Source: Aestuariispira ectoiniformans (GTDB lineage: Bacteria; Pseudomonadota; Alphaproteobacteria; UBA8366; Aestuariispiraceae). Taken from it: 64,000 nt of DNA. The stretch lies in contig NZ_CP062788.1 of assembly GCF_025136295.1 (NCBI RefSeq), positions 2,683,588-2,747,587 on the forward strand, given 5' to 3'. A program made the position numbers and the translations under genes. Below, piece after piece: positions 20,928 to 26,461 of the stretch. The notes beneath the pieces are model-generated. The model made no database searches. It was not told where the DNA came from and saw only the letters and a list, made by a program, of their open reading frames with translations. The number at the start of each line of letters is the position of its first letter. Position 1 is the stretch's first letter.

Positions 20928-21953
20928 TCAGTCACTTAGGCTGTCGTATTTGACGACTGTCTGATCAATTGCACCAAAGACCGATTGCCCGTCGCTATCC
21001 TTCATTTCGATTCGGATCTGGTCACCGAACTTCATGAATGGGGTGCTCGGTTTGCCATTGTTGATCGTTTCGATCATGCGGATTTCAGCGATACAGGAAT
21101 AACCGACGCCACCATCCTTGATGGCAGAACCATGTTCGGTATTCTGTTTATTGGAGATCGTGCCGGAACCGACGATGGCGCCCGCGCCCAGGGGACGGGT
21201 TTTAGCGGCATGGGACACCAGTTCTGGGAAACTGAACGTCATGTCGGTTCCTGCGTCTGGCTTGCCGAAGGCCTCATTGTTCAAGGTGCTGAGAAGGGGC
21301 AGGGAGAGCTTCTCACCGTCCCAGGCGTTCCCGAGCTCATCAGGCGTTACAGCGACCGGTGAGAAGGCGCTGGAAGGTTTGCTCTGGAAGAAGCCAAAGC
21401 CCTTTGCCAGTTCTCCCGGGATGAGGCCTCGCAGGCTGACGTCATTAACCAGCATAAGCAGTTTGATGTGCTGAGCGGCCTGTTGAGCGGAGACCCCCAT
21501 GGGTACGTCGTCGGTGATGACAGCAATCTCGGCTTCAAAATCAATACCCCACTCCTCACTCGCCAGCGGGATATCGTCGTGGGGGCCGATGAAGGAATCG
21601 GAACCGCCCTGATACATCAGCGGGTCCGTCCAGAAGCTGTCGGGAATCTCCGCGCCACGGGCCTTCCGAACGAGTTCCACATGATTTACATAGGCGGAAC
21701 CATCCGCCCATTGGTAGGCGCGGGGCAGGGGGCTTTCTGCGTCGCTTTCAGAAAAGGAGATCGTATCATCACACTTGCCCGCGTTCAGGTCGTCATAAAC
21801 CTGTGCCAGGCGTGGAGAGATTTCCTCCCAATTATCAAGAGCTTGTTGCAGTGTTTTTGAGATGTCCTCTACAGAAACAGCTTTTGTCAGATCCCGGCTT
21901 ACGACAACAAGTTTGCCGTCGCGCGTTCCGGATTTCAGGGTTGCCAGTTTCAC
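20928..21953 (-). CDS. fahA: Fumarylacetoacetase (FAH family)
   Basis: A 341-residue FAH-fold hydrolase. It begins MKLATLKSGTRDGKLVVVSRD and contains DFEAEIAVITDDVP, a metal-site segment typical of the family, then GFGFFQSKPSSAFSPVAVTPDELG, GAGAIVGSGTISNKQ and the C-terminal GDQIRIEMKD barrel strands. Its length and sequence fit the proteobacterial fumarylacetoacetase that splits fumarylacetoacetate into fumarate and acetoacetate, the last step of tyrosine/homogentisate breakdown. It follows homogentisate dioxygenase by 13 bases in the same operon, which supports that role over the broader acylpyruvase group. No maleylacetoacetate isomerase gene is in view. Confidence 0.9.
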   Translation of the reverse strand: MKLATLKSGTRDGKLVVVSRDLTKAVSVEDISKTLQQALDNWEEISPRLAQVYDDLNAGKCDDTISFSESDAESPLPRAYQWADGSAYVNHVELVRKARGAEIPDSFWTDPLMYQGGSDSFIGPHDDIPLASEEWGIDFEAEIAVITDDVPMGVSAQQAAQHIKLLMLVNDVSLRGLIPGELAKGFGFFQSKPSSAFSPVAVTPDELGNAWDGEKLSLPLLSTLNNEAFGKPDAGTDMTFSFPELVSHAAKTRPLGAGAIVGSGTISNKQNTEHGSAIKDGGVGYSCIAEIRMIETINNGKPSTPFMKFGDQIRIEMKDSDGQSVFGAIDQTVVKYDSLSD

Positions 21954-21966
21954 TCTGTCGCTCCTC

Positions 21967-23100
21967 TCAGCCTTGCCAGCTTTTTACGTAGTTGTGGTTT
22001 TCGATTCCGTCCGGCATGTCTCCGACGTCCAATGCATCACGGGTATCAATCATGACAGCGTATTCGTCAGTGGCCGGTTTGGATTGCTTGAAGGCATTCT
22101 GCATCGCTTTCGGATGTGGCCCATGCGTAAAGCCGCAAGGGTGGAAGGTCATCATGCCGGCGTCGATGTTATCCCGGCTGAAGAAATCACCGGCGTGATA
22201 GAACAGCACTTCGTCATAGTCGTCGTTGTTGTGATAGAAGGGCACCTTCAATGCGTCATCTGACGATTCGAACGGACGAGGGCAGAAGGTACAGACGACG
22301 AATCGGTCGGCCACAAATGTAGTGTGCGCCGACGGCGGCAGATGATAGCGATGGCTCATCAGGGGGCGAATATCACGGACATTCACCCGAACCGGGCAGA
22401 GGTCGCCTTTCCAACCAACAACATCCAACGGATTGAACGGATAGGTAACCGTGCTGGTAACATCACGGCGTTTGATGACGACTTTCCACGTACCGTCCGG
22501 ACCCAGGAACGCTTTTTGTTCCTGAAATGCTTCGTCCAGCGTGGGATGGTCCAAAACAGCAGGGTCAAAAATTGCATGGGGCCCCACAAGGCCTTTTTCA
22601 GGCAGCAGGTAGCTGCTGTTTGTTGCTTCTATGAGAAGGGCCATGACGGGGGAAGTGCATTCCAGGCGCCACATCGTGCCGCGTGGCAACATGATATAGT
22701 CGCCCGCTTCGAAGGCCAGGTGACCAAAGTCGCAATAGAGGTGACCGGCGCCGGTATGAATGAATAGCAATTCATCGCCATCACCATTGCGTACCAGGTG
22801 ATCCATTTTTGCCGGTGCGCGCCACATACGTATTTTGACGCTGTTGTTATGGAGAACCTGCGTGGCATCCCAGGGGGATGACTGAAGAGCTTCCAGTTTG
22901 TTAAGGTCGAAGGCGCGGGGACGTAGCGGACCCTCCCAGTCGATCCAACCGGTCGGTGCATGTGCATGGTAGAGGTGAGATGCCGGGCCGAAGAACCCTT
23001 CTTTCCCCATCTCCCTCTCATAGGTGCCATCCGGCAGGTTTGTATGTGCCTGCCTGCTGGTCTGCCCCTCGATACGGGGGAATGAAATATATTTCTTCAT
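21967..23100 (-). CDS. hmgA: Homogentisate 1,2-dioxygenase-type protein
   Basis: A 377-residue cupin-fold iron dioxygenase of the shorter proteobacterial HGD class, opening the ring of homogentisate in tyrosine catabolism. The N-terminal half has GDGDELLFIHTGAGHLYCDFG; the C-terminal active-site half has HNNDDYDEVLFYHAGDF, with His290 and Glu297 as candidate iron ligands, and FHPCGFTHGPHP, with His326. The spacing between the first His and Glu differs by one residue from the human enzyme, so the ligand assignment is tentative. It is the first gene of an operon with fahA and divergent from a TRAP transporter; the 338-base region between them carries three related inverted repeats. Confidence 0.88.
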   Translation of the reverse strand: MKKYISFPRIEGQTSRQAHTNLPDGTYEREMGKEGFFGPASHLYHAHAPTGWIDWEGPLRPRAFDLNKLEALQSSPWDATQVLHNNSVKIRMWRAPAKMDHLVRNGDGDELLFIHTGAGHLYCDFGHLAFEAGDYIMLPRGTMWRLECTSPVMALLIEATNSSYLLPEKGLVGPHAIFDPAVLDHPTLDEAFQEQKAFLGPDGTWKVVIKRRDVTSTVTYPFNPLDVVGWKGDLCPVRVNVRDIRPLMSHRYHLPPSAHTTFVADRFVVCTFCPRPFESSDDALKVPFYHNNDDYDEVLFYHAGDFFSRDNIDAGMMTFHPCGFTHGPHPKAMQNAFKQSKPATDEYAVMIDTRDALDVGDMPDGIENHNYVKSWQG

Positions 23101-23230
23101 GATATCCCTCGCTCTTTAATATCTGAGCGTTTGATTGTGGTTTGTCGATCTGCAACGCACTTCGCGTAAATCTTGGTTTGCGATAGTGGGCGATCCAGAG
23201 TGTCCCATCACTCCCTTCTTTAAGTTAATA

Positions 23231-23244
23231 GTTTCAATTGAAAT
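23231..23244. promoter_or_regulatory. Operator-like repeat, copy 1
   Basis: GTTTCAATTGAAAT; its inner 12 bases TTTCAATTGAAA form a perfect palindrome. It is the hmgA-proximal copy of three. Confidence 0.6.
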
Positions 23245-23260
23245 GAAGTCAAGGGTGTAT

Positions 23261-23274
23261 GTTTCTTCTGAAAC
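23261..23274. promoter_or_regulatory. Operator-like repeat, copy 2
   Basis: GTTTCTTCTGAAAC, 5-bp perfect arms with a 4-base centre. Its centre is exactly 30 bp from that of copy 1, close to three helical turns. Confidence 0.6.
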
Positions 23275-23336
23275 GATCTCGGTTAGATTGTGATTTGTCC
23301 TGTTTTAACGTTCAAATGACAAAGATCATTCAAAAA

Positions 23337-23350
23337 GTATCAAATGAAAC
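23337..23350. promoter_or_regulatory. Operator-like repeat, copy 3
   Basis: GTATCAAATGAAAC, the most degenerate copy, centred 76 bp from copy 2 and 89 bases before the dctP start. Confidence 0.5.
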
Positions 23351-23438: not shown

Positions 23439-24485
23439 ATGATGGGATATCTCGGGCGAAATTCCCTGATCGGAGGCATGGCACTTGCGCTGGTTGCGGC
23501 GTTTAACGGCCATGCGGCTAATGCTGCAGGTGACGTCATTGAATTGAAGATGGCGCATTACCTGCCGACAGCAAATGGTATGCACGAGGACTTCATGGAG
23601 CCCTGGGCCCGTGAATTGGAAAAGCGCACCAATGGCAAGGTCAAGGTTACGATCTATCCTGGTGGTACACAGCTAGGTAATATCGCCAAGCTTTATGATG
23701 AGGTTCGCAGTGGCGTTGTGGATATCGCGCATGGACTGCGTGGTGTCCCGAATGGCCGCTTCAAGAAAACCTCGATCATCGAATTGCCCTTCATGTCGAG
23801 CAGCGCGGATGCAGCAAGCCGCACCCTGTGGGCGCTCTATCCGCAATACCTGAAAGACGAATATCCAGGCGTGAAAATGCTCGCGTTGCACGCCCATAAT
23901 GGCGGTCTGCTTCACACTGGCAGCAAGCCCATTCAAACAATGGACGATTTGAAAGGTTTGCGTATCCGCTTCCCTAGTGGCCCGATCAAGGCGTTGCTGG
24001 AAGAATGGGGTGCTACCCCGCAAGGGCTTCCGCCGGGGAAAGTGTATGAGAGTGTGCAGAAGGGCGTCATCGACGGATCGCTGCTCCCATGGGACCCGAT
24101 TAACAGTTTCAAACTGTCGGAAGTCATGAACTATCACACTGACGTGGGCGGTGTTTATACCGTGTCCTTCTGGTTTGCCATGAATGAGCGGAAATACAAT
24201 AGCCTGCCTGCGGATGTCCGGAAGGCTATTGACGATATTTCGGGTGACAACCTGATCGGTAAATTCGGTGGCTGGTGGAACCGATGGGACAAGCTTGGCA
24301 AAGACCTTGCTGTGGCCAAAGGAGATCCGATTACGGTTCTGGACAAACAGGAACAGGCCAAATGGGAAAAAGCGGCGGAGCCGGTCATTGATGAATGGTT
24401 GTCCAAACTGGAAGACGACGGCGTTGATAACGCTCGCGAAATCTATAAGGCGATGAAAGACAAAGTTGCCGAATACGAAGGCTAA
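23439..24485 (+). CDS. dctP: TRAP transporter substrate-binding protein (DctP family)
   Basis: A 348-residue periplasmic binding protein. The signal peptide runs to about residue 29 (hydrophobic GGMALALVAAF, then ANA-AG). The mature part starts ELKMAHYLPTANGMHEDF and carries the DctP motif LKGLRIRFPSGPIKALLEEWG; Arg177 is at the position that normally salt-bridges a substrate carboxylate. GVIDGSLLPWDPINSFKLSEV is the second conserved block. It delivers an organic acid to the DctQM permease encoded just downstream. Being divergent from hmgA-fahA, an aromatic acid linked to tyrosine breakdown is a reasonable guess, not proven by the sequence. ATG codons at 23439 and 23442 are both usable. Confidence 0.93.
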   Translation: MMGYLGRNSLIGGMALALVAAFNGHAANAAGDVIELKMAHYLPTANGMHEDFMEPWARELEKRTNGKVKVTIYPGGTQLGNIAKLYDEVRSGVVDIAHGLRGVPNGRFKKTSIIELPFMSSSADAASRTLWALYPQYLKDEYPGVKMLALHAHNGGLLHTGSKPIQTMDDLKGLRIRFPSGPIKALLEEWGATPQGLPPGKVYESVQKGVIDGSLLPWDPINSFKLSEVMNYHTDVGGVYTVSFWFAMNERKYNSLPADVRKAIDDISGDNLIGKFGGWWNRWDKLGKDLAVAKGDPITVLDKQEQAKWEKAAEPVIDEWLSKLEDDGVDNAREIYKAMKDKVAEYEG

Positions 24486-24573: not shown

Positions 24574-24590
24574 GGGTGAGGTAAGTGGTG

Positions 24591-25154
24591 ATGGGGCGAA
24601 TCGTAAAATTATTTCATTTACTGTCACGTTGGTGCGCCTATCTGGGCGTTGTTTCTCTATCAATAGCAATGCTCGTGACCGTTGCTGATGTGGCCCTGCG
24701 CGCCATTACGCGAATGAGCAATTGGTTTCTGGATACGCCGATCGGACTGGCGGTTCCCGGAGTCGTCGATCTGGTGCAGCTTTTTGTGATGGGCGCGGTA
24801 TTCATGTCGATACCTTTCGCCTTCATGGCTGATGCCCATGTGTGTGTCGACCTGCTGACCGCGCGTCTGGGGGCACGGCGAGAGAGCTTCTTCAAAGGAA
24901 TAGCGGCTTTCTGTTCCGCCGCTTTCATGACAGCGGTTCTGTATTACGGATGGGCGCAGGCACAGATGCAGATCGAATTTGGCGACTCGTCGTCAACATT
25001 GGAGATTCCGATGCTTTGGTTCTGGGTGGTTCTGTTGGCCGGCGCAGCTTCGTCTATCGTTGCCACATTGCTGACGGGAATCCATCAGTTGTTGACTGTT
25101 TTTAGAGTATCGTCGCATCGCGTTGATCCAAGCCGAATTGTGCAGGGAGAATAG
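24591..25154 (+). CDS. dctQ: TRAP transporter small permease subunit (DctQ family)
   Basis: A 187-residue membrane protein with four predicted helices, the first formed by YLGVVSLSIAMLVTVADVAL and the last by WFWVVLLAGAASSIVATLL. The QFFVMGAVFMSIPFAFMADAHV-like central region (split here by LVQLF) is the conserved DctQ core. GTG codons at 24585 and 24588 are in frame, but the ATG at 24591 is best spaced from GAGG at 24578-24581. It pairs with DctM, whose gene starts 2 bases after its stop. Confidence 0.88.
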   Translation: MGRIVKLFHLLSRWCAYLGVVSLSIAMLVTVADVALRAITRMSNWFLDTPIGLAVPGVVDLVQLFVMGAVFMSIPFAFMADAHVCVDLLTARLGARRESFFKGIAAFCSAAFMTAVLYYGWAQAQMQIEFGDSSSTLEIPMLWFWVVLLAGAASSIVATLLTGIHQLLTVFRVSSHRVDPSRIVQGE

Positions 25155-25156
25155 AC

Positions 25157-26461
25157 ATGGAAGCGTCAACAATTGGCATCCTGGGATTTATAATCGCCCT
25201 GCTTTTAATATTGGTCCGCGTTCCCGTGGCAATTGCGATGGGGCTGGTTGGCGCCATCGGGTTCGGGATCATCAACGGATTCGACTCTGTGGCTTTTGTT
25301 ATGGGGGCAGCTCCATTCGAATCGGTTTTCCCCTACACATTATCCGTTGTGCCTTTGTTTTTGATGATGGGGGTGTTCGCATCGCATGCAGGGCTCTCAA
25401 GTAGCCTGTTTCGTGGCGTGAACGCCTTTGTCGGACATTTCAAGGGAGGGCTGGCAATGGCCAGCATCGGGGCTTGCGCCGGCTTTGGCGCGATCTGTGG
25501 GTCCAGCCTTGCGACAGCCGCAACGATGTGCCGTGTAACGCTCCCGGAAATGAGACGTCATGGATATGATGACAGCCTGTCTTCGGCAGCCATTGCTGCG
25601 GGCGGTACGTTAGGCGTTTTGATCCCCCCCAGCATTCTTCTGGTGATCTATGGTCTGTTGACTGAACAATCCATTGGTCGGTTGTTCGCGGCGGCTCTGA
25701 TCCCGGGCCTTCTGGCGACGCTGTTATATATGGGGGCCGTGGCAGTTCAGGTTCGTAGAAATCCGGAACTGGGTCCGGCTGCGCGTAAGTACTCCTGGTC
25801 GGAGCGATTTGAAACCTTACGGGAAATCCGTGCGGTCGTCGGTCTCTTCGCGTTGGTGATTGGCGGCATCTACATTGGGTTGTTCTCTCCAACCGAAGCT
25901 GCGGCTGTCGGTGCATTCGGCGCAATTGTTATGGCTGTGGCGCGGAAGGCGATTACGAAATCCGTATTCTGGGAATGCATGCGTGAAACTGCACAGATGA
26001 CGGGGATGATCTTCCTGATTCTCATCGGTGCGGCCGTCTTCAACTATTTTATCGAAACCACGAATTTGCCGCAGTTGCTTATCAGTGCCGTAGGGGAGGC
26101 GGGGTTGAGCCCGATAACGGTCCTGCTGTTGTTGATGGTGTTTTATATCATTCTCGGTTGCTTTATGGACGCGCTATCAATGATTCTCCTTACGGTGCCA
26201 TTTGTGTTTCCGTTGATCTCTGCGTTGGGGTTGGATCCGATCTGGTTTGGCGTGTTGTTGGTTACAGTCGCAGAACTGGGACTGATCACGCCGCCGGTGG
26301 GAATGAACCTGTTCATTATCCAAGGGGTGGCCGGCAACATGCGCCTGGAGACCGTTGCGAAGGGAGTCGTACCATTTCTGATCGCAGATATAATACGCCT
26401 GGCGATTTTGATCCTGATTCCTGGTCTGGTGCTTTGGTTGCCAAGCATCACAGCGTTCTGA
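25157..26461 (+). CDS. dctM: TRAP transporter large permease subunit (DctM family)
   Basis: A 434-residue integral membrane protein with about twelve hydrophobic segments, the sodium-coupled transport subunit. Family blocks seen are VPLFLMMGVFASHAG, GGLAMASIGACAGFGAICGSS, GTLGVLIPPSILLVIYG, FSPTEAAAVGAFGAI, GCFMDALSMILLTVPFVFP and ELGLITPPVGMNLFIIQG. Full length. Last gene of the dctPQM operon; two tRNA-Asp genes follow. Confidence 0.95.
   Translation: MEASTIGILGFIIALLLILVRVPVAIAMGLVGAIGFGIINGFDSVAFVMGAAPFESVFPYTLSVVPLFLMMGVFASHAGLSSSLFRGVNAFVGHFKGGLAMASIGACAGFGAICGSSLATAATMCRVTLPEMRRHGYDDSLSSAAIAAGGTLGVLIPPSILLVIYGLLTEQSIGRLFAAALIPGLLATLLYMGAVAVQVRRNPELGPAARKYSWSERFETLREIRAVVGLFALVIGGIYIGLFSPTEAAAVGAFGAIVMAVARKAITKSVFWECMRETAQMTGMIFLILIGAAVFNYFIETTNLPQLLISAVGEAGLSPITVLLLLMVFYIILGCFMDALSMILLTVPFVFPLISALGLDPIWFGVLLVTVAELGLITPPVGMNLFIIQGVAGNMRLETVAKGVVPFLIADIIRLAILILIPGLVLWLPSITAF

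Follow-up and report, generated by a model that had tools for sequence, protein, structure and literature searches.

Three operator sites between hmgA and a TRAP transporter operon in Aestuariispira ectoiniformans, very probably read by a MarR-type repressor encoded far off on the same chromosome

Among the described systems closest to this locus is HmgS, a MarR-family regulator of hmgAB that was predicted in 2016 in Alteromonadales and Pseudoalteromonadales, according to excerpts of PMC5343134. HmgR of Pseudomonas putida, which in the same excerpts represses hmgABC with homogentisate as anti-repressor, is likewise a repressor of the homogentisate pathway but belongs to a different protein family, IclR. 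In Rhodopseudomonas palustris, the MarR-family protein CouR governs aromatic catabolic genes, and its cluster holds the CouPSTU/TarPQM systems for aromatic-acid uptake, of TRAP and ABC types, one of them TRAP (excerpts of PMC3610893). The locus described here resembles CouR, as far as those excerpts go, in pairing a MarR regulator with aromatic catabolism and aromatic-acid transporters including TRAP, but differs in its pathway, homogentisate rather than coumarate, with CouR responding to p-coumaroyl-CoA. Our search of the open-licence literature turned up no paper describing a MarR regulator for the homogentisate genes of alphaproteobacteria, or the operator reported below, for which an exact motif search gave unrelated matches. 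An HmgS-type regulon is already predicted; what is new here is the unlinked regulator and, probably, a TRAP transporter as target.

In the window (the whole stretch of 64,000 nucleotides analysed), hmgA and dctP are divergent, and the 338-bp gap between their starts at 23100 (minus) and 23439 (plus) holds all three 14-bp sites (Table 1). The gene fahA follows 13 bp behind hmgA and is presumed to belong to the same operon. The hmgA product scores 79.9 bits against TIGR01015, far under the equivalog cut-off of 510.75. Together, hmgA and fahA (20928-23100) represent a divergent type, far under the NCBIfam equivalog cut-offs, whose homologues nonetheless have the operator and the MarR neighbour in common with classical hmgA genes. 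A 377-aa short-type HmgA from Phenylobacterium zucineum, about 22% identical to the classical enzyme, is already listed as homogentisate 1,2-dioxygenase in excerpts of PMC2529317.

Table 1. Features of the hmgA-dctP region and of the unlinked genes; positions refer to the window unless given on G000:C1, the chromosome of the window.
Feature	Position	Strand	Basis and remarks
fahA, fumarylacetoacetase-like, 341 aa	20928..21953	-	Pfam FAA_hydrolase and FAA_hydro_N_2; below TIGR01266 cut-off
hmgA, short-type homogentisate 1,2-dioxygenase homologue, 377 aa	21967..23100	-	Pfam HgmA_N and HgmA_C above cut-offs
Presumed hmgA -10, TATTAA (4 of 6)	23225..23230	-	Read from sequence and promoter alignment
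Operator 1	23231-23244	-	GTTTCAATTGAAAT; in the hmgA direction it reads ATTTCAATTGAAAC; lies entirely within the 16-bp spacer between the presumed hmgA -35 and -10; sequence and homologous promoters
Presumed hmgA -35, TTGACT	23247..23252	-	Read from sequence; TTGACA-like enrichment at this offset in homologous promoters
Operator 2	23261-23274	.	GTTTCTTCTGAAAC; 30 bp away from operator 1; the distant marR is preceded by an identical operator
Operator 3	23337-23350	+	GTATCAAATGAAAC; 88 bp separate its end from dctP; presumed to serve the TRAP operon
dctP, TRAP solute-binding protein	23439..24485	+	Pfam DctP; NCBIfam TRAP_S1 above cut-off
dctQ, TRAP small permease subunit	24585..25154	+	Position and homologues beside dctP in relatives; no NCBIfam hit
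dctM, TRAP large permease subunit	25157..26461	+	TIGR00786, 339.7 bits, above cut-off
marR	G000:C1:1755164-1755628	minus	MarR-family gene about 0.95 Mb from hmgA
hpd	G000:C1:3696261-3697277		TIGR01263 above cut-off
maiA	G000:C1:4053428-4054054		

The three 14-mers on a GTTTC-N4-GAAAC plan that a sequence-only reading of this DNA had reported are all in place, each with at most one mismatch, and its centre distances of 30 and 76 bp are exact. At 10.5 bp per turn these distances correspond to 2.9 and 7.2 turns, so that only operators 1 and 2 lie roughly on one face of the helix. Its remark that no regulator gene adjoins is also correct for the surroundings of the gap. Allowing one mismatch, the plan occurs five times in the 64-kb window, three of them in this gap. 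Of 20,000 shuffled versions of the 338-bp gap, made with dinucleotides preserved, 462 contained one site, 6 contained two and none contained three. The three-site cluster is beyond chance. Genome-wide, the loose plan with up to one mismatch is not enriched (142 matches per strand versus 188 for the reversed control), which might suggest that an AT-rich palindrome has clustered by accident; the density argument accordingly applies to the cluster rather than to the motif in general. We consider accidental clustering extremely improbable and rejected it on the shuffles and on the conservation upstream of hmgA in relatives that contradicts it.

The tighter palindrome GTTTCANNTGAAAC, again with up to one mismatch, gave 16 matches in the genome versus 9 for the reversed pattern. 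Nine of the 16 fall in reading frames, three are parS-like GTTTCACGTGAAAC copies, and the four intergenic ones are the three window sites and a single further copy before a MarR gene (G000:C1:1755646), which is identical to operator 2 and leaves 17 bp between its end and the start codon of marR. The sequence-only reading had held that a similar density across the genome would count against the motif; the loose plan is indeed random-like in this respect, while the tight palindrome outside genes is not. The three perfect GTTTCACGTGAAAC copies, which we take to be the core of parS, lie at 615-618 kb (G000:C1:615774-617885; L001 1501-1514, L002 1501-1514 and L002 1557-1570) near ParA/GidA/GidB-like genes named by eye, and their outer arms equal those of the MarR operator. 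These identical arms on the same chromosome raise the question of whether the window sites are stray ParB-binding parS sites, but they have no CACGTG centre and lie about 2.1 Mb from the GTTTCACGTGAAAC copies, and in other genomes such arms and their positions go with hmgA promoters and MarR genes. We rejected a parS identity on centre sequence and position and regard it as very unlikely. At one other locus, L181, the operator beside marR is GTTTCACGTGAAAC itself.

The gene behind the fourth intergenic copy encodes a MarR-family protein that passes both Pfam models, MarR_2 with 53.2 bits (cut-off 27) and MarR with 50.2 bits (cut-off 24.6), and its closest PDB chain by sequence is 2fa5 (E 1.7e-33), presumably the Xanthomonas protein XC1739. 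The palindromic operator is present in its own and in the predicted target promoters. The three sites are very probably docking sites of this MarR-type repressor encoded far off on the same chromosome. More specifically, sequence comparison makes it highly likely that they are operators of an HmgS-type MarR repressor (G000:C1:1755164-1755628) acting on hmgA-fahA, on its own gene and probably on the TRAP operon. The earlier expectation of a site at a MarR- or IclR-type regulator gene was right as to MarR, with the identical operator before marR; of the two families, the evidence favours MarR.

The gene neighbourhoods of the MarR homologues point the same way. They are divergent from and adjoin hmgA in G016, G018, G020 and G032, follow hmgA-fahA in G046, and are divergent from a distant or classical HmgA gene in G009, G011 and G056. 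In G043 the homologue is divergent from maiA with a site between them, and in G049 from fahA, with maiA two genes further (fahA and maiA by eye and homology). More generally, they adjoin hmgA or hpd-hmgA in many Alpha- and Gammaproteobacteria and are genetically linked to hmgA, hpd or maiA, whereas our marR is not beside hmgA; its HmgS-type membership therefore rests on descent and operator, not on its own gene order. A quick tree of 69 MarR proteins placed it among the hmgA-linked ones, with support of 80 to 92 at the neighbouring forks, none of them starred. A match to it at E <= 1e-22 was found in 51 of 299 genomes drawn from the phylum. Upstream of MarR homologues of at least 38% identity, and with L186 left out as a duplicate, the exact operator occurs within 350 bp in 37 of 51 cases, and in 41 when one mismatch is allowed; for more distant MarRs the figure is one in nine. 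The 14 of these 51 closer homologues without the exact operator upstream, 10 of them beyond one mismatch, include the nearest one, L058 (from G003, a genome without an HmgA match), and L060 (G007).

Conservation in related hmgA promoters, on which the sequence-only reading had staked its array, was found. An HmgA match at E <= 0.001 is present in 31 of the 59 genomes of the relatives search. All five same-family genomes with a close HmgA (G001, G002, G006, G007 and G008) carry the GTTTCANNTGAAAC operator upstream of hmgA; the outer GTTTC/GAAAC arms are perfect in four and have one mismatch in Marivibrio halodurans (G007). Same-family G009 and G011 match HmgA at only about 25% identity, and the HmgA of G011 is classical (TIGR01015, 625 bits). 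Hwanghaeella grinnelliae (G002) has the operator before hmgA, marR, dctP and hpd, the last confirmed by Pfam, and the relative G008 is alike in this.

To this we added 80 named HmgA loci, the best of the candidates listed, found with an alignment of 12 HmgA proteins; some share contigs with the relatives (L127 with G002, L134 with G007, L136 with G001, L186 with G032), and an exact operator here means GTTWC-N4-GWAAC. At 18 of these best 80, a divergent marR lies within 400 bp of hmgA, and the gap carries an exact operator in 16 and one with a single mismatch in the other two. At a further 15 the divergent marR is further off, and the gap beside it holds the exact operator in every case; the gene between is hpd by eye, confirmed by Pfam in one case (L144). 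The single locus with a non-divergent marR has no site upstream of hmgA and one ahead of its hpd. No MarR lies in the stretch covered at 44 of the best 80, each with at least 150 bp of upstream sequence, of which 13 have an exact operator within 300 bp of hmgA and 31 lack one there. The remaining 2 of the best 80 had too little sequence to class. As a background, 386 of 20,000 random 350-bp segments of the longer named loci contained the operator, with the real sites left in. Sequence comparison shows the operator and homologues of this MarR to co-occur from genome to genome.

Plasmid records with a match to our MarR number 29, and in the seven examined, chosen for variety and including two from Pseudoalteromonas, the MarR adjoins an annotated hmgA or hppD-hmgA every time. 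None of these seven annotated loci has the exact operator; they hold CTCTCA..TGAGA, GTCTCA..TGAGA or GTTGC..GCAAC palindromes, apart from one without a clear palindrome, and the Pseudoalteromonas marR-hmgA gaps contain CTCTCA-N2-TGAGA. The likeness to HmgS lies in the MarR family, the shared pathway and a Pseudoalteromonas marR divergent from hmgA. From family and gene order, the Pseudoalteromonas MarR genes examined would be the HmgS of PMC5343134, as its excerpts present it. Compared with HmgS, our regulator (37% identical to the Pseudoalteromonas MarR over 138 residues) is unlinked, the arms read GTTTC instead of CTCTC, and the TRAP operon is a probable target.

The arms also vary with the protein. 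Our MarR has the recognition-helix motif MDK-x-K-VSR, and the residue after MDK-x and the fourth letter of the operator arm vary together: K goes with T, while Q, A or R often go with G or A, GTTGC or GTTAC arms being common with non-K residues. Two GTTTC arms accompany a helix K in 17 of 22 rows and other residues in 4 of 19 (Fisher p 5e-4, for rows that are related and not independent); six rows without a recognisable helix, and those without a candidate operator, are left out of the count. The covariation gives independent support for this MarR group reading these sites, and makes its DNA-reading code directly testable. It also bears on whether another regulator family binds here, such as an IclR-type HmgR, a LysR-type HmgQ or TyrR/PhhR, with the marR match a coincidence. 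Excerpts of PMC5343134 do place homogentisate genes under IclR-family HmgR and LysR-family HmgQ in some gammaproteobacteria, and the GTTTC/GAAAC arms resemble some IclR-type sites in excerpts of PMC13273656. Nevertheless, many genomes have the operator linked to the MarR gene itself, its letters shift with the recognition helix of the MarR, and an identical copy stands in front of our own marR, which makes another family unlikely.

To see how a MarR bound at these sites might act, we considered the promoters. The hmgA promoter in the window can be read as TTGACT-N16-TATTAA with operator 1 in the spacer. We aligned on the operator 53 promoters, all picked for having a site and some with GTTGC arms: window site 1, nine from relatives, 28 of named hmgA genes and 15 named ones ahead of hpd. 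In 36 of the 53, a TTGACA-like hexamer (at least 4 of 6) has its first base 8 or 9 positions ahead of the operator, versus 6 and 4 at two control offsets. Immediately after the operator, 38 of the 53 have the A2 and T6 of a -10, versus 2 and 0 at control offsets; the TA beside the arms is often mirrored in front, however, and could be part of the palindrome, which makes the -10 count weaker and leaves the -35 count unaffected. With -35 and -10 so placed, the operator of homologous hmgA and hpd promoters occupies their 16-17 bp spacer. The window promoter is not among the 38, as its -10 matches at only 4 of 6 positions and ends in A. A generic sigma-70-type scan called no promoter in the hmgA-dctP gap; its silence at the hmgA promoter is due to its stricter -10 rule. 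On the dctP side, operator 3 is accompanied by a weak -35 (TTCAAA) but by nothing that convinces as a -10. The operator of our marR lies between the presumed promoter and the start codon.

A MarR dimer sitting between -35 and -10 would exclude RNA polymerase, which makes repression the natural reading: a dimer on operator 1 would block polymerase at hmgA-fahA, and a second one on operator 2, 30 bp away, would strengthen the block. Operator 3 would control the divergent TRAP operon, and the site before marR would provide autoregulation. An aromatic intermediate, most simply homogentisate or a pathway neighbour, may release the repressor, and we propose that ring cleavage and aromatic-acid import would then be switched on together. 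The analysis provides a concrete, predicted regulator, operator and promoter architecture for alphaproteobacterial homogentisate (tyrosine) catabolism, links a TRAP transporter to the homogentisate pathway, and fits a widespread, little-described mode of control of bacterial tyrosine breakdown.

The part of the TRAP operon was assessed in seven same-family genomes. TRAP genes adjoin hmgA in the genome of the window and in G001, marR in G002 and G008, and a MarR paralogue in G003, and were not found near hmgA or marR in G006 and G007. The TRAP genes of G002 and G008 come after marR, and marR and dctP are each preceded by an operator. In G001, two operators separate the run dctM-dctQ-dctP-maiA from the divergent hmgA-fahA-MBL hydrolase-FAD monooxygenase, and in G003 operators flank the TRAP operon, which is followed by the MarR paralogue and maiA. 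Only one of the best 80 named HmgA loci has a TRAP system, and that locus is on the same contig as G001; in these data the hmgA-TRAP link is confined to this family.

Conceivably, only hmgA-fahA is regulated, the TRAP operon being a chance neighbour and operators 2 and 3 auxiliary sites for hmgA. Operator 3 without a good -10, the absence of sites at our own hpd and maiA, and the rarity of TRAP genes just noted (G006, G007 and the named loci) would all agree with this. Against it stand the operator between marR and dctP in G008 and G002, the single maiA and dctPQM run of G001 facing hmgA across two operators, and the G003 operators flanking a TRAP operon with MarR paralogue and maiA behind, and we find an hmgA-only arrangement rather doubtful. 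Control of both gene sets by the unlinked MarR, as proposed here, matches the claim of the sequence-only reading that a distantly encoded factor governs homogentisate catabolism together with the transporter. The comparison supports this by naming the MarR and by tying TRAP to hmgA, maiA or marR in relatives; co-control of uptake is what we infer from it.

As for the transported compound, we infer an aromatic acid. By sequence, the closest PDB entries to DctP are 5i5p, 7nr2, 5im2, 7nsw, 7nrr and 5iga, some of which we take to be aromatic-acid binders, a lead only; an AlphaFold model of DctP built from two sequences had a mean pLDDT of 43.5. Genes for an MBL-fold hydrolase and an FAD monooxygenase were present in five of seven genomes tested (G001, G002, G003, G006 and G008) and not found in the genome of the window; the FAD protein is a member of NCBIfam PRK08132, a family akin to the 3-(3-hydroxyphenyl)propionate hydroxylases. 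Tentatively, the TRAP system may be a dedicated importer of homogentisate or a hydroxyphenylacetate-type precursor, co-regulated with ring cleavage by one unlinked MarR and scavenging aromatics released by others. The same tentative scheme would have the regulon of relatives add the FAD monooxygenase and MBL-fold hydrolase as an upstream hydroxylation branch, lost here with the transporter kept. The G003 cluster (L227, G003:C11:1-12000), in a genome without an HmgA match, comprises an FAD monooxygenase, a FahA-like protein, a VOC-fold protein, the TRAP operon, the MarR paralogue and maiA with four operator-like sites, and is perhaps a related ring-cleavage route.

Further sites that had been predicted at hpd and maiA did not materialize: with up to two mismatches allowed, none lies upstream of either gene in this genome. 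We rejected both as further targets, and as far as sites show they are outside the regulon. The hpd gene is divergent from an Lrp/AsnC-like gene named by eye (L237 2250-3985; G000:C1:3694000-3700500); given this neighbour and the missing operator, two regulators may share the control of tyrosine entry. In Hwanghaeella, a gene that looks DoxX-like by eye has a perfect GTTTCATTTGAAAC upstream (L229 2870-2883; G002:C4) and is a possible extra target of the regulator.
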